Source: Chlorobiota bacterium (GTDB taxonomy: Bacteria; Bacteroidota; Bacteroidia; Bacteroidales; Prolixibacteraceae). From it: DNA of 51,239 nt. A program made the translations under genes and the position numbers. Numbering within the stretch: position 1 is the stretch's first letter; each line of letters opens with the position of its first letter. Location: positions 1-51,239 of the forward strand of contig JAADGO010000031.1 of assembly GCA_013152355.1 (NCBI GenBank), given 5' to 3'. Below the pieces are notes generated by a model. The model was not told the DNA's origin. It saw only the letters and a list, made by a program, of their open reading frames with translations, and ran no database searches. This document shows positions 16,533 to 24,896 of this stretch, in pieces.

Positions 16533-17211
16533 TTATATATCTGATGCCTGACTTTCCTGCCCTTCAACAACAACGTCCTTCTTCTCTTCCTCTTTCATGG
16601 TGCTATTGAAATATTTACGGTAAAACAGCAATATTGAAAATATACCAACAGTAATTGAAGAATCGGCAATGTTAAATACAGGCCTGAAAAAGATGAATTG
16701 ATTTCCTCCCCAGAATGGGAACCAATCGGGGTAATGCCCATGGATCAGCGGAAAATAAAACATGTCAACGACCTTGCCATGTAAAAAAGTTGAATAACCT
16801 CCACCATCAGGCATGAACCTGGCAACCTGCCCGTAACTATGGTCGAAAAGAAGCCCATAGAAAGCACTGTCGATAATGTTCCCAATTGCCCCGGCAAATA
16901 TTAAAGCAATACATGCTATAAAGCCCATTGGCATGTCTCTCCTTGAGAGTTTAACTAAATACCAGCCTATTGCTATTACGGCAATAATGCGGAAAATACT
17001 AAGGAAAATTTTACCGTACCCCCCGGCAAATTCAAACCCAAATGCCATGCCGTTGTTTTCAACAAAAAGAATGATAAACCAACCAATTCCCAAAAATTTT
17101 AATCTCTTCACCAAGCGACAGATGGGTTTTTATCCAGAATTTAAGAATCTGGTCTGCAGTTAGTATTATCAAAATGATGATGAATGATTTAGTAAGTTTC
17201 GATAATTTCAC
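16533..17211 (-). pseudogene. lspA: lspA, lipoprotein signal peptidase, frameshifted by a 4-bp tandem duplication
   Basis: Prolipoprotein signal peptidase II, an inner membrane aspartyl protease. The frame opening with GTG at 17211 encodes the expected N terminus (helix 1, TADQILKFWIKT, LGEEIKIFGNW) and then stops. The next frame, open to 16533, continues with FVENNGMAFG, AGAIGNIIDSAFYG and VFNIADSSITVG, which carry the catalytic Asp residues. At the junction TTGG is present twice (17077-17086 on the plus strand reads AACCAACCAA). Removing one copy gives a continuous 224-residue protein of normal family length. The gene is normally essential, so error or population variation must be considered. 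ileS, dksA-like and lspA are adjacent, a common order in Bacteroidota. Confidence 0.85.
17077..17086. repeat. 4-bp tandem duplication inside lspA
   Basis: AACCAACCAA on the plus strand (two and a half copies of a 4-bp unit). It shifts the lspA frame; a single unit would restore GNWFIILFVENN. Confidence 0.85.
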
Positions 17212-17425
17212 AAACAATAGTTTAATTTATTAATTCTCCAGGGCATCTAATCTCAACTTTGCTAATTATTACTAAGGCGACCGGCTCAACCGGTTTTACC
17301 AACCACCCTCCATCGGCATAAGTGCCTGCAGGACAAATTGTATCCTCAGGTTGTATACGCTCAAACCTGTCAGGACTGATATTCTGCCTTCCTTCCAACT
17401 ACTGCCTGAAGTTGTAGAGGCATCT

Positions 17426-17803
17426 TTACTTTTGGTTCTTCTTGGCATCGATGCTTAAAGTTGCATGGGGTACCGCCCTCAGCCTTTCTTTTGAAATAAG
17501 TTTGCCTGTTTCGCGGCAAATGCCATAAGTCTTGTTTTCTATACGAATCAAGGCAGCCTGTAGGTGCTGGATAAATTTTAACTGGCGCTGGGCCAATTTA
17601 CCAGCCTCTTCTTTCGACAATGTTGCTGCTCCTTCTTCCAGGACTTTAAAAGTAGGCGATGTATCCTGTGTGTCGTTACCATCGCCGTGCGTTATGGAAT
17701 TCTTGTACATCTCGTAATCTTCCTTTGCTTTTTCAAGCTTGTCAAGGATTAACAGTTTAAATTCCTCCAATTCTGAATCTGAATATCTTTTTTTATTTGC
17801 CAT
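17426..17803 (-). CDS. TraR/DksA family protein without a full zinc finger
   Basis: 125 residues. The N-terminal two-thirds form a coiled-coil hairpin with the acidic tip region (HGDGNDTQDTSPTF) that in DksA enters the RNA polymerase secondary channel. The C-terminal part keeps the zinc-finger shape (YGICRETGKLISKERLRAVP) but has one cysteine instead of four. Bacteroidota homologues are known with this degenerate finger. It is probably a transcription modulator, and it lies between ileS and lspA on the same strand. Confidence 0.85.
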   Translation of the reverse strand: MANKKRYSDSELEEFKLLILDKLEKAKEDYEMYKNSITHGDGNDTQDTSPTFKVLEEGAATLSKEEAGKLAQRQLKFIQHLQAALIRIENKTYGICRETGKLISKERLRAVPHATLSIDAKKNQK

Positions 17804-17902
17804 AGCCTTATTTTTTTAAGTTAATCATGTCCCCGAATTATTTTGCCTCTAAAATTATAATTTTTTTTAATACTTAATAGGTTGAATAACATCCCTGAAA
17901 TA

Positions 17903-20900
17903 TTATATAATGTATTTTTTCACACTTATTACGATATTAACACCATTGTCAATATCAATTTCCTTCGCATCGTCTTCGTTGAGGCTGTCGACTAATTCAA
18001 GTTTTACTGCTAAGGTCTGGTTACTTATATACTCTTTGTGGTTTATAACTGCCTTGTTTACAGCCTCGTGCCTGACTATCTGTAGTTCAACCCGGTCGGT
18101 AACCGAAAAACCACTCTCTTTACGAATATTCTGAATTTTGTTTATGAATTCGCGTGCTATTCCTTCCTGCTTCAATTCTTCGGTTATGTTGATATCAAGG
18201 GCAATGGTCATATTCCCATCGTTGGCCACCAGCCAGCCTGGAATATCTTCAGTTACTATTTCCACATCATCAAGGGTTATGGCTACCATTTCATTGTTAA
18301 TGCTCAGGTTAAAAGTCCCTGTTTTTTCAAATAGGGCAATATCTTCCTGGGAGAGATTATTTATAGCCCCTGCAATTTGCTTCATCAACTTCCCGTATTT
18401 AGGCCCTAACGCCTTAAAATTCGGTTTGATTTTCTTTTTAATAATTCCGGAAGTGTCGGAGATATATTCAACTTTCTTAACGTTTACTTCGGCAAGTATA
18501 ATATTCTCGACTGCGCTAAACTGTTCACGGAAATCTTCATTGAGTACCGGCACCATAATCTTTGCCAAAGGCTGGCGCACTTTTATCATCTCTTTCCGCC
18601 TGAGGGCAAGGATCATGGAAGAGGCTTTTTGTGCAATTGCCATTTTCTTTTCCAGGTTTTCATCAATCAGGGTATTATCGACACCAGGGAATTCTGCCAG
18701 GTGTACACTTTGCCCTCCTTCTCTGCCCGTTACTTTGTCAAGGTCGGAAAATAGCAAATCGGCATAAAACGGGGCAATCGGCGCCATCAGTTTTGCGATG
18801 GTTGCCAAACATGTATACAGGGTTTGGTATGCCGAAATTTTATCATTGTCGTATTCGCCTCCCCAGTAACGTTTTCGGCTTAAGCGGATAAACCAATTAC
18901 TTAAATTCTCAGTAACAAATTCTGAAATGGCACGCCCTGCACGGGTTGGTTCATAGGTTTCATAACATTCGCCAACGTTTTTGATAAGCGAATTGAGCAA
19001 TGAAATTACCCACCTGTCAAGTTCGGGCCTTTGCTCCATAGGGATTTCATCTTCCGCATACCTGAATTTATCTACATTGGCATAAAGGGCAAAAAAACTA
19101 TATGTATTATAAAGGGTGCCGAAGAATTTCCGTTTTACCTCTTCTACTCCCTGAATATCGAATTTCAGGTTATCCCAGGGCTGGGCATTGGTAATCATAT
19201 ACCACCTTAAAGGGTCCGACCCGTATTTTTCAATCGTTTCGAAAGGATCGACTGCATTTCCCAGGCGTTTCGACATTTTATTGCCGTTTTTATCCAAAAC
19301 CAGCCCGTTTGAGATGATATTCTTAAATGCAACCGATTCGTCAGTCAGTGTAGCAATTGCATGCAGTGTGAAAAACCAGCCACGGGTCTGGTCTACTCCT
19401 TCAGCGATAAAGTCGGCGGGGAAAACATCTTTGAAAATATCTTTGTTCTCAAATGGATAATGCCTTTGTGCGTATGGCATGGCTCCTGAATCGAACCAAA
19501 CATCTATGAGGTCGGATTCCCTGAACATTTTTTCTCCTTTTGAAGAAACAAGGATTATATCGTCGACATAAGGTTTATGCAGGTCTATTTTTTCATAGTT
19601 TTCTTTCGAATTATTGCCAATGATAAACTCCTGGAAAGAACTTTTTTCCATAAACCCGGCATCGATTGCCTTATTGATCTCATTTATAAGCTCTTCTACC
19701 GACCCGATGCACTTTGTTTCCGATCCGTCTTCAGTCCTCCAAATAGGGAGGGGAGTCCCCCAAAAGCGTGAACGGCTCAGGTTCCAGTCAACCAAATTCT
19801 CCAGCCAGTTGCCAAACCGCCCTGTCCCGGTAGATTGGGGTTTCCAGTTGATGGTATTGTTCAGTTCAATCAATTTATCTTTTACAGCAGTAGTGCGAAT
19901 AAACCATGAATCAAGTGGGTAATATAGTATCGGCTTGTCTGTCCGCCAGCAATGCGGGTAACTATGGGTATGTTTCTCAATTTTAAATGCCTTGTTTTCT
20001 TTTTTTAGCATCACCGAAATGTCGATGTCAACAGAGGAATCATCATCTGTTAATGAATCATCGTATTCATTTTTTACGTACCTGCCGGAGTAAGCAGCAT
20101 AGTTTTCAACATTCACATATTCCTGAACAAACTCCGGATTCATATCAGCAAGTATGAAAAACCTCCCTTTCCGGTCGACCAGTGGTTGTACCTTACCATC
20201 TTTGTCGTCAATGATTAAGGGCGAAATCCCGTTTTGTTTTGCAACGCGGTCATCGTCAGAACCAAAAGTAGGGGCTATATGTACAATCCCCGTACCCTCT
20301 TCTGTTGTTACAAAATCGCCGGGTATAACCCTGAATGCATCCCCTTTGGGTTTTACCCATTCAATCAGCTGTTCATAATTTATACCAACCAGTCCTTCCC
20401 CTTTGTATTCCCCTAAAACTTTAAAGGGTATTTTTTTATCCCCGGGCTTATAGCTACTCAATACCAGGTCAGCATTTTTTGAATTGAAATGGACGTTTAC
20501 AAGGTCTTTCGCTAAGATCAATGTTACAGGTTTTCCTGAATAAGGATTGAAAGTGCGGACTTTTACGTATGTGATATCTGTGCTAACACAAAGAGCCGTA
20601 TTCGATGGTAAAGTCCATGGGGTGGTTGTCCATGCAAGGAAGTATAAATCAGAATCAACACCCTCAAAAAGGAGTTCTGATTTTTCGTCTCTGATTATTT
20701 TGAACTGGGCAATTGCTGTAGTGTCTTTTACTTCGCGGTAACACCCTGGCTGGTTTAGTTCGTGCGAGCTTAAACCTGTTCCGGCAGCCGGCGAATACGG
20801 TTGAATAGTATAGCCTTTATACAGTAGCCCTTTATCGTAAATATTTTTGAGTAGCCACCATACGGTTTCAATATAGCGGCTGTCGAATGTTATGTACGGG

Positions 20901-21346
20901 TCGTCAAGGTTTACCCAGTAGCCCATTTTACGTGTTAGCTCTTCCCACTCCCGGGTGTACTTCATTACCTCGGTGCGGCAGGCTTTGTTGTATTCTTCAA
21001 CCGATATTTTTTTCCCGATATCTTCTTTGGTAATATTCAATAGTTTTTCAACCCCCAGTTCAACAGGAAGCCCATGGGTATCCCACCCTGCTTTTCGGTG
21101 TACCCGGAATCCTTTCATCGTTTTATACCGGCAAAAGATATCTTTGATGGCCCTTGCCATAACATGATGAATCCCAGGCATCCCGTTAGCAGAAGGCGGC
21201 CCTTCGTAAAAGACGAATGTTTCATTCCCTTCGCGGGTTTTTATGCTTTTATGAAAAGTATCGTCTTCTTCCCATTTCTTTAATATGTCCTTGTTGACCT
21301 GGGATAAGTCTAACTGCTTGTATTCCTGAAATCTACTACTCATCAA
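17903..21346 (-). CDS. ileS: Isoleucyl-tRNA synthetase, long eukaryote-like type
   Basis: Class I synthetase of 1147 residues charging tRNA-Ile. The HIGH motif lies in PPSANGMPGIHH and KMSKS in KNGNKMSKRLGN. The editing (CP1) domain contains TTPWTLPSNTALCVS and GTGIVHIAPTFGSDDD, and DVWFDSGAMPYA precedes KMSKS. The length and the extended C-terminal domain fit the type found in eukaryotes and some bacteria, which is often less sensitive to mupirocin; that is family knowledge, not shown here. Two ATG codons in tandem (21346, 21343) can start it. A TATATTTG element lies 37 bp upstream. Confidence 0.96.
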   Translation of the reverse strand: MMSSRFQEYKQLDLSQVNKDILKKWEEDDTFHKSIKTREGNETFVFYEGPPSANGMPGIHHVMARAIKDIFCRYKTMKGFRVHRKAGWDTHGLPVELGVEKLLNITKEDIGKKISVEEYNKACRTEVMKYTREWEELTRKMGYWVNLDDPYITFDSRYIETVWWLLKNIYDKGLLYKGYTIQPYSPAAGTGLSSHELNQPGCYREVKDTTAIAQFKIIRDEKSELLFEGVDSDLYFLAWTTTPWTLPSNTALCVSTDITYVKVRTFNPYSGKPVTLILAKDLVNVHFNSKNADLVLSSYKPGDKKIPFKVLGEYKGEGLVGINYEQLIEWVKPKGDAFRVIPGDFVTTEEGTGIVHIAPTFGSDDDRVAKQNGISPLIIDDKDGKVQPLVDRKGRFFILADMNPEFVQEYVNVENYAAYSGRYVKNEYDDSLTDDDSSVDIDISVMLKKENKAFKIEKHTHSYPHCWRTDKPILYYPLDSWFIRTTAVKDKLIELNNTINWKPQSTGTGRFGNWLENLVDWNLSRSRFWGTPLPIWRTEDGSETKCIGSVEELINEINKAIDAGFMEKSSFQEFIIGNNSKENYEKIDLHKPYVDDIILVSSKGEKMFRESDLIDVWFDSGAMPYAQRHYPFENKDIFKDVFPADFIAEGVDQTRGWFFTLHAIATLTDESVAFKNIISNGLVLDKNGNKMSKRLGNAVDPFETIEKYGSDPLRWYMITNAQPWDNLKFDIQGVEEVKRKFFGTLYNTYSFFALYANVDKFRYAEDEIPMEQRPELDRWVISLLNSLIKNVGECYETYEPTRAGRAISEFVTENLSNWFIRLSRKRYWGGEYDNDKISAYQTLYTCLATIAKLMAPIAPFYADLLFSDLDKVTGREGGQSVHLAEFPGVDNTLIDENLEKKMAIAQKASSMILALRRKEMIKVRQPLAKIMVPVLNEDFREQFSAVENIILAEVNVKKVEYISDTSGIIKKKIKPNFKALGPKYGKLMKQIAGAINNLSQEDIALFEKTGTFNLSINNEMVAITLDDVEIVTEDIPGWLVANDGNMTIALDINITEELKQEGIAREFINKIQNIRKESGFSVTDRVELQIVRHEAVNKAVINHKEYISNQTLAVKLELVDSLNEDDAKEIDIDNGVNIVISVKKYII

Positions 21347-21440: not shown

Positions 21441-21471
21441 CTCAGCAAGTGACTTCGAGCCACCTGCTGAG
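21441..21471 (-). other. Strong hairpin upstream of the ileS promoter
   Basis: On the minus strand an 11-bp stem with one G-U pair (CTCAGCAGGTG with CACTTGCTGAG) can extend to 13 bp around a 5-base loop. No T-run follows on either strand. It sits in a gene-free gap and is not explained by any neighbouring gene. Confidence 0.6.
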
Positions 21472-21736: not shown

Positions 21737-21770
21737 AAAAAAAGATGGCATCCCTGAAAGGAATGCCATC
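21737..21770 (-). terminator. Rho-independent terminator of the 58-aa membrane protein gene
   Basis: Perfect 8-bp stem GATGGCAT (21744-21751) with ATGCCATC (21763-21770), 11-base loop, followed on the minus strand by seven T (21743-21737). It begins 25 bp after the small gene stop. Confidence 0.88.
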
Positions 21771-21794
21771 ATCATTATTTGTCTAAAAAAAATG

Positions 21795-21971
21795 TCAAAT
21801 ATTTACCAAATAATTGGCACTCATAAAAAGCCCTAAAATGATTGCTATTCCGGCAATCGTGCCTAACGCCAGCGAAATAATCAGATTCAGGGGAAGAGAT
21901 TGCCTTTTCCCAACCGGACTGGTTGAGATTACAATCTGGTTCTGCTTTTCAAATTGTTTTACTGTTTCCAT
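21795..21971 (-). CDS. 58-residue single-pass membrane protein, unknown function
   Basis: A small frame with ATG at 21971 and TGA at 21795. The N-terminal 30 residues are polar (METVKQFEKQNQIVIS, then SPVGKRQS), followed by one long hydrophobic helix (about residues 30-52, LIISLALGTIAGIAIILGLF) and a short tail SANYLVNI. It is a full transcription unit: a TTG-N18-TACATTTG promoter upstream and a strong terminator downstream. I do not recognise the family. The arrangement suggests a real, independently expressed small protein, perhaps a regulator or stabiliser of a membrane complex, but that is inference. Confidence 0.75.
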   Translation of the reverse strand: METVKQFEKQNQIVISTSPVGKRQSLPLNLIISLALGTIAGIAIILGLFMSANYLVNI

Positions 21972-21982
21972 ATTATTTGTTT

Positions 21983-22006
21983 AAAAAAGACTGTCTTGTC
22001 TTTTTA
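21983..22006 (-). promoter_or_regulatory. A/T-rich hairpin in the leader of the 58-aa protein gene
   Basis: AAAAAGAC and GTCTTTTT flank a 6-base loop, 11 or so bases before the ATG. It is weak but lies exactly within the short predicted leader, so it could affect translation. Confidence 0.35.
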
Positions 22007-22018
22007 AATTAAAGCCTG

Positions 22019-22047
22019 CAAATGTAGAAATATGTTTTATAACACAA
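22019..22047 (-). promoter_or_regulatory. Promoter of the 58-aa membrane protein gene
   Basis: The best Bacteroidota-type promoter in the window: TTG at 22047-22045, an 18-base spacer, then TACATTTG at 22026-22019 on the minus strand. The predicted start leaves a leader of about 40 bases. Confidence 0.65.
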
Positions 22048-23339: not shown

Positions 23340-24896
23340 TTAATTTTTAGGAGATAGCGTTATGATCGGGACAATTACTTCTTCCATCGAGATGCCGCCA
23401 TGCTGGAAGGTGTTTTTATAATAACCCGCATAGTAGTTGTATTCATTTGGGTAAACAAAAAAGTCATTGCCCTGGGCAAAAATATATGATGTGCTTACAT
23501 TCCGGGTAGGTAAGAAAGCATCTTTCGGATTTTTTACTTCAAAAACCTGTTTTGTTTTGTAATTCAAATTACGGCCGAGCTTGTAACGAAGGTTGGTATT
23601 CGTCTCCCGGTCGCCTATTACCTTCACCGGGTTGTTCACCTTAATAGTGCCGTGGTCGGTTGTGATTACCAATTTGATGCCATTCCCTGACAGCGATTTT
23701 AATAATCCCAGCAACAATGAATGATTAAACCAGCTTAAAGTTAACGAGCGGTATGCTTTTTCATCGTTAGCCAGTTCCCTGATCATGTCCATTTCAGTAC
23801 GGGCATGAGAAATCATATCAACAAAGTTGAATACCATAACCGAAAGGCGGTGGTCCAGGATATTATGGAAGTTCTCTGCCACTTTTTTCCCGGATTTTAA
23901 GTTCAATACTTTATCGAAATATAATTTTTCTTTTCGTGCGTAGCGTGTCAATTGCTTTTCGAGTAATTCTGCTTCATGCCGGTTTTTATGTCCCTCATTG
24001 TCATCATGTTCCCATAAGTCAGGATACAATCTTTCAATTTCAGACGGCATAAGCCCGGCAAACATTGCATTCCTGGCATACATGGTTGCTGTTGGCAGGA
24101 TACTGAAATATAAATCCTCCTCATCCGTATTGTAGAACTGGTTAATTACCGGGCTTAGTGTACGCCATTGGTCGTAGCGCAGGTTATCAATAACCAGCAC
24201 AAAAACTTTATCCCCATTATCAAGCATGGGGAAGACCTTATGCTTAAAAATATCTGTTGACATCAAAGGCCTTTCACCAAGCTGCTTACCGAACCAGCTA
24301 AGGTAATTCTCTTTGATAAAACGGGAAAATGCCTTATTTGCATCATTTTTCTGCATCCCTAATACCTGGTCCATTGCCGAATCTTCTGATCCGCCCAGTT
24401 CCAGTTCCCAATAAACCAGCTTACGGTAAATATCTTTCCAGTCATCGAAAGATAAATGTTCGTTTATCCGCATACCGATCTGAGAAAACTCAGTTTGATA
24501 AGCTGATGTTGTTTGCTGTGTAACCAAACGCTTTTGGTCGATATTTTTTTTCAGTGAAAGGAGTATTTGTTTTGGGTTTACCGGCTTAATCAGATAATCG
24601 GCGATTTTTGACCCTATTGCTTCGTCCATTATATCCTCTTCTTCACTTTTAGTGATCATTATAACCGGGACATTGGGTGATACCCCTTTTATTTCATTTA
24701 ATGTTTCCAGCCCTGTCATCCCGGGCATATTTTCATCCAGGAAGATGATGTCATAATGATTTGCCCTGGCCAAATCTATTGCATCGCTTCCATTATTGGC
24801 TGTTTCAACTTCATAACCCTTTTCCTGGAGGAAAATGATGTGTGCCCTCAATAAATCAATCTCATCGTCTGTCCAAAGTATTCTGATTTTCCTCAT
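23340..24896 (-). CDS. porX: PorX: response regulator with PglZ phosphatase-like domain
   Basis: 518-residue two-component regulator of the type IX secretion system. Residues 1-120 form a receiver domain (WTDDE acidic pair, phospho-acceptor Asp in IIFLDENMPG, ITKSEEED with Thr and Lys). A helical linker follows, and residues about 200-515 form a PglZ/alkaline phosphatase-superfamily domain with VIDNLRYDQWR, NFVDMISH and VITTDHGT as metal-site motifs. In Porphyromonas and Flavobacterium PorX, paired with PorY, controls T9SS expression. The gene directly downstream of porW/sprE supports this role. Confidence 0.93.
   Translation of the reverse strand: MRKIRILWTDDEIDLLRAHIIFLQEKGYEVETANNGSDAIDLARANHYDIIFLDENMPGMTGLETLNEIKGVSPNVPVIMITKSEEEDIMDEAIGSKIADYLIKPVNPKQILLSLKKNIDQKRLVTQQTTSAYQTEFSQIGMRINEHLSFDDWKDIYRKLVYWELELGGSEDSAMDQVLGMQKNDANKAFSRFIKENYLSWFGKQLGERPLMSTDIFKHKVFPMLDNGDKVFVLVIDNLRYDQWRTLSPVINQFYNTDEEDLYFSILPTATMYARNAMFAGLMPSEIERLYPDLWEHDDNEGHKNRHEAELLEKQLTRYARKEKLYFDKVLNLKSGKKVAENFHNILDHRLSVMVFNFVDMISHARTEMDMIRELANDEKAYRSLTLSWFNHSLLLGLLKSLSGNGIKLVITTDHGTIKVNNPVKVIGDRETNTNLRYKLGRNLNYKTKQVFEVKNPKDAFLPTRNVSTSYIFAQGNDFFVYPNEYNYYAGYYKNTFQHGGISMEEVIVPIITLSPKN

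Follow-up and report, generated by a model that had tools for sequence, protein, structure and literature searches.

Comparative evidence for a clade-specific gene encoding a 58-residue, single-helix membrane protein downstream of pheS in the Prolixibacteraceae

We found that the gap between pheS and ileS in the window, by which we mean the whole stretch of 51,239 nucleotides analysed, holds a small gene of its own. Comparison with relatives indicated that this gene is real, protein-coding, present in single copy and inherited within the branch of the family around Mariniphaga. With modest confidence, we favour a reading in which the gene is monocistronic and specifies a small protein that crosses the inner membrane once, with its N-terminus in the cytoplasm, and whose helix would play an accessory or regulatory part in a membrane complex.

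Results

The transcription unit

The unit lies between pheS and ileS (17903-21346), both on the minus strand as well, and its elements run 5' to 3' on that strand as promoter, leader hairpin, 58-codon ATG frame and stem-loop terminator. The features were located as follows.

22019..22047, minus strand: promoter, with TTG (-33) at 22047-22045, an 18-nt spacer, and TACATTTG (-7) at 22026-22019
21984..22005, minus strand: 5'UTR hairpin of 8 pairs, AAAAAGAC-AAGACA-GTCTTTTT, fold -6.4 kcal/mol
21795..21971, minus strand: coding sequence, 58 amino acids, range including the stop; ATG at 21971-21969, TGA at 21797-21795
21737..21770, minus strand: intrinsic terminator, GATGGCATTCCTTTCAGGGATGCCATC plus T7, 12-pair stem including one G-U, 3-nt loop
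22234..23250, minus strand: pheS (Phe-tRNA synthetase alpha; Pfam PF01409/PF02912), upstream neighbour, outside the unit

A sequence-only reading of this DNA had proposed a hidden transcription unit here, and the window sequence placed every element on the minus strand where that reading had put it. The promoter, TTG-N18-TACATTTG, agreed with the Bacteroides -7/-33 consensus, TAnnTTTG/TTTG (PMC7366714), and the short leader with its hairpin was recovered at 22005-21984. The terminator and its T7 tract were likewise present; the description of its stem as perfect was slightly generous, because one of the 12 pairs is a G-U.

Taken alone, single-sequence scans of the window were weak evidence, with one terminator found versus 0.6 expected and promoter-like sites of the E. 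coli pattern at chance level (5 found versus 4.1 expected). Such elements arise by chance in AT-rich intergenic DNA, and an accidental open frame flanked by promoter- and terminator-like sequences could in principle look like this locus. The unit is more than chance because its frame, -7 box and terminator were kept across species. Of the 42 homologous loci, 37 had a TAnnTTTG box ahead of the start codon and 38 had a stem with a T-run beyond the stop. The terminator stems were wholly different in sequence between genera, so what is kept appears to be function rather than sequence. Against homologues under frame selection and an architecture conserved in 42 species, we put the probability of a chance frame at close to nil. 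The gene is accordingly best read, on comparative grounds, as monocistronic with its own promoter and terminator.

Homologues, selection and distribution

Using a profile of ten members, we found the gene in 42 of 140 genomes of the same family, one copy each, with E-values down to 4e-31; a tally of 43 carriers includes a chance-level match with an internal stop (G028), which was left out. Within the genus, the three other genomes each had a homologue at 60-65% identity; more distant homologues came from other genera. The homologous proteins were 54-58 amino acids long, with the same start and no internal stops. Most of the closest pairs had a dN/dS of 0-0.1, with values up to 0.24 where few changes were counted; between L032 and L033, two congeners of the window genome, it was about 0.1. 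The window gene itself gave 0.18 against L032 and 0.15 against L033, values that are approximate because synonymous sites are near saturation in its own pairs. Several homologue pairs had identical proteins at a dS of 0.2-0.3. These estimates indicate strongly purifying selection on the frame. The check that the sequence-only reading had proposed, a search for homologous frames combined with a comparison of synonymous and non-synonymous change, was thereby passed in 42 species with dN/dS far below 1, and its proposal of a hidden unit for a small single-pass membrane protein stood on the conserved frame, start, length, promoter and terminator together with this selection.

The same substitutions bear on whether the locus mainly produces an intergenic small RNA of roughly 280 nt, the peptide being secondary. 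A promoter and terminator of its own are also the anatomy of intergenic sRNAs by published criteria (PMC7366714), but changes here concentrate in synonymous sites, the protein remains identical in the pairs with dS of 0.2-0.3, and the frame persists where terminator and leader sequences have changed. This substitution pattern makes a mainly non-coding product unlikely, and we rate its probability as very low.

No credible relative was found outside the family in a sample of 393 genomes of the order, 395 of the class, viral contigs and plasmids, the order- and class-wide matches being at chance level only, and among the genomes searched the carriers were confined to one clade of the family. Similarly, no diverged copy resembling the gene was found downstream of pheS in genera without it. 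In a pheS tree of 36 rows all carriers fell into one group together with one non-carrier, requiring 2 changes compared with 12.3 in shuffles, and the relevant fork had a support of 90/97. One gain plus one loss would be the simplest reading of this history. Related genera lack the gene and must therefore be able to do without whatever function it serves.

Genomic neighbourhood

In 31 of the 42 loci the small gene had pheS as its neighbour upstream on the same strand, mostly within about 0.4 kb, and the genes on the far side of the small gene varied among relatives. The small gene was upstream of pheS in one genome (G010) and located elsewhere in two (G026 and G160); some loci without an adjoining pheS may be cut by contig ends. 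Among the 42 loci, pheS was the only conserved neighbour of the small gene, and a membrane role for pheS is not evident. This bears on whether the product is a constitutive structural subunit of a clade-specific respiratory or transport complex instead of a regulator. Its own promoter, terminator and purifying selection would fit steady expression, and most members keep an acidic residue close to where the helix ends on the outer side; nevertheless, no conserved complex gene lies nearby, and restriction to one clade would be less expected of a core part than of an accessory one. We consider a structural subunit doubtful, and an accessory or regulatory helix remains the preferred reading.

Other features of the surrounding DNA were recorded as well. 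Directly upstream of pheS lies a gene for a PorX-like response regulator with a PglZ domain (23340-24896, minus strand), whose domain make-up resembles that of a type IX secretion regulator; it was the sole secretion-related neighbour and was not adjacent to the small gene in relatives. Downstream of the unit, lspA, a DksA/TraR zinc-finger gene and ileS follow one another on the minus strand (16533-21346). Between the terminator and ileS, a very stable 14-pair hairpin (CAGCAGGTGGCTCGAAGTCACTTGCTG, minus strand) occupies 21443-21471. The 214-nt stretch that contains it folded more stably than any of 200 shuffles (z -3.5) and matched no Rfam family, and the hairpin could be an ileS leader element.

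Leader RNA

The genome of the window carries the short form of the leader. Its hairpin folded modestly better than shuffles (z -1.2), and its support is therefore comparative: most short-leader homologues had an equivalent 5' hairpin in the corresponding position, which included G-U pairs in L032, L037 and L043, and L040, L051, L190, L196 and L197 had none. As a genome-wide regulatory word the hairpin was rejected, AAAGAC-N3-9-GTCTTT occurring 3 times, fewer than the reversed control. The hairpin probably protects the 5' end of the mRNA or tunes translation.

In another genus, g10, some 20 loci had a long leader of 99-137 nt, about 136-17 nt upstream of the homologous start codon (L052, L054-L058, L060, L063, L064, L066-L068, and L188-L195 except L190). 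Most long leaders had a second, long-range stem ahead of the start codon, the arms of which changed together (CCCAATCC/GGATTGGG in L052, CCGTAC/GTACGG in L191, and ATTCCGAA/TTCGGAAT in L195). Among eight divergent types, arms paired with their own partners at a mean of -13.5 kcal/mol versus -7.5 kcal/mol with mixed partners. In a MAFFT alignment, in which some rows were shifted by a column, 82.8% of cells were paired versus 76.8 in shuffles, and six double changes were counted, a number as high in 11 of 500 shuffles; this stricter covariation count appears supportive, not overwhelming. The long leader is a possible cis-regulatory RNA. In most long leaders, the -7 box was also followed immediately by a conserved ACTTTTTAGTCTTTTATT stretch. 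A regulon sharing the element was not borne out, the matches of a model of this leader (R1) in eight genomes being credible only at the small gene, and Rfam searches of the window and leaders gave nothing at threshold, weak 'amino-acid leader' and sRNA matches falling far under the cut-off. It is conceivable, though on the whole improbable, that the gene arose once in the gap downstream of pheS and was fixed as a membrane-complex regulator, and that one sub-lineage then gained a dedicated covarying leader RNA controlling only the small gene.

Structured 5' leaders, small size and a single hydrophobic helix are also what would be expected of a self-acting hydrophobic peptide of the type I toxin kind, such as Hok, TisB or Ldr, whose mRNA would be held in check by its leader and an antisense RNA, and a glycine-rich helix could oligomerise. 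Type I toxin-antitoxin systems are commonly, not universally, multi-copy or mobile. The small gene differs from them in being present once per genome, inherited across its clade, usually located by pheS and under strong purifying selection; no copy was found on plasmids or viral contigs, and an opposite-strand TAnnTTTG, a candidate antisense promoter in cis, occurred in 4 of 42 loci. Because of the single copy, the inheritance within the clade and the apparent lack of a consistent cis antisense promoter, a toxin is less likely than a helix acting within a membrane complex, and we regard it as distinctly improbable.

The predicted protein

The ATG frame of 58 residues with one transmembrane helix, as described from sequence, was upheld by the frame, its hydropathy and structure prediction. 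Residues 1-27 are polar with a net positive charge, and residues 28-57 form a hydrophobic stretch of about 30 residues (hydropathy peak 2.56 over 19 residues). AlphaFold2 placed a helix at 28-57 with pLDDT above 90 in its core, in a model of the monomer without partners built on two sequences. The charge is +2 on the N-side and neutral on the C-side, and by positive-inside reasoning the N-terminus would be cytoplasmic.

Pfam, NCBIfam, PHROG, PADLOC and PDB sequence searches returned no significant family, so the earlier remark that the protein matches nothing known held. One PDB hit (E 0.001) aligned 20 residues with a designed knot protein and was taken as chance. The DUF4342 model (PF14242) was touched by 3 of 10 members of the small-protein family at E of about 0.02, and there is a likeness in the I-x-I strand-like stretch followed by L-P-L/V and a hydrophobic segment; however, the N- and C-terminal portions of DUF4342 proteins are missing from the small protein. 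Membership was rejected, also after genome scans, the best match among the small protein and its homologues being 14.8 bits versus a gathering cut-off of 25 bits and the profile-profile probability 7.3% over 23 columns. With at most about 60 residues, one predicted helix and a frame under coding selection, the protein represents a genuine family, new in itself, within the familiar class of small single-pass membrane proteins.

In the homologue alignment Q12, I13, I15, G37, G41, I45 and F49 were invariant and L26, P27, L34, G47 and L48 nearly so, giving the conserved pattern QIxI, LP, GxxxGxxxIxGLFxG. Spacing of the G37-G41-I45-F49 and G47-G51 type is typical of close helix packing. Conservation periodicity peaked at 180 degrees, not 100, and a reading of these positions as one helix face is therefore only partly supported. 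The conserved positions suggest glycine-mediated packing of the helix, with another membrane protein as its most likely counterpart.

Discussion

The analysis describes a real gene without profile-library coverage, of a sort that can be passed over in annotation. Its origin can be traced to one clade, its transcriptional anatomy is complete and it is under strong selection. To our knowledge, few small membrane proteins have been studied in Bacteroidetes, and the gene offers a clean test case of how lineage-specific small membrane proteins arise there and what they do.

By analogy with known small membrane proteins, the product most likely contributes a transmembrane helix with an accessory or regulatory role to a membrane complex. 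The helix would pack via the conserved glycines G37, G41, G47 and G51 together with I45 and F49, and the invariant cytoplasmic QIxI...LP segment would add a second contact. Regulation of a transporter or secretion machine, as first suggested, may be the form that this role takes.

The protein would then act in the manner of AcrZ, KdpF, CydX and MgrB, small single-pass membrane regulators or subunits (PMC11539335, PMC7267776). It resembles them in its size class (about 30-60 amino acids), its one helix and its own small gene, easily overlooked by length cut-offs. No sequence relation to them was found, and the small protein differs from them in being confined to one Bacteroidetes clade and in carrying the N-terminal QIxI...LP segment.
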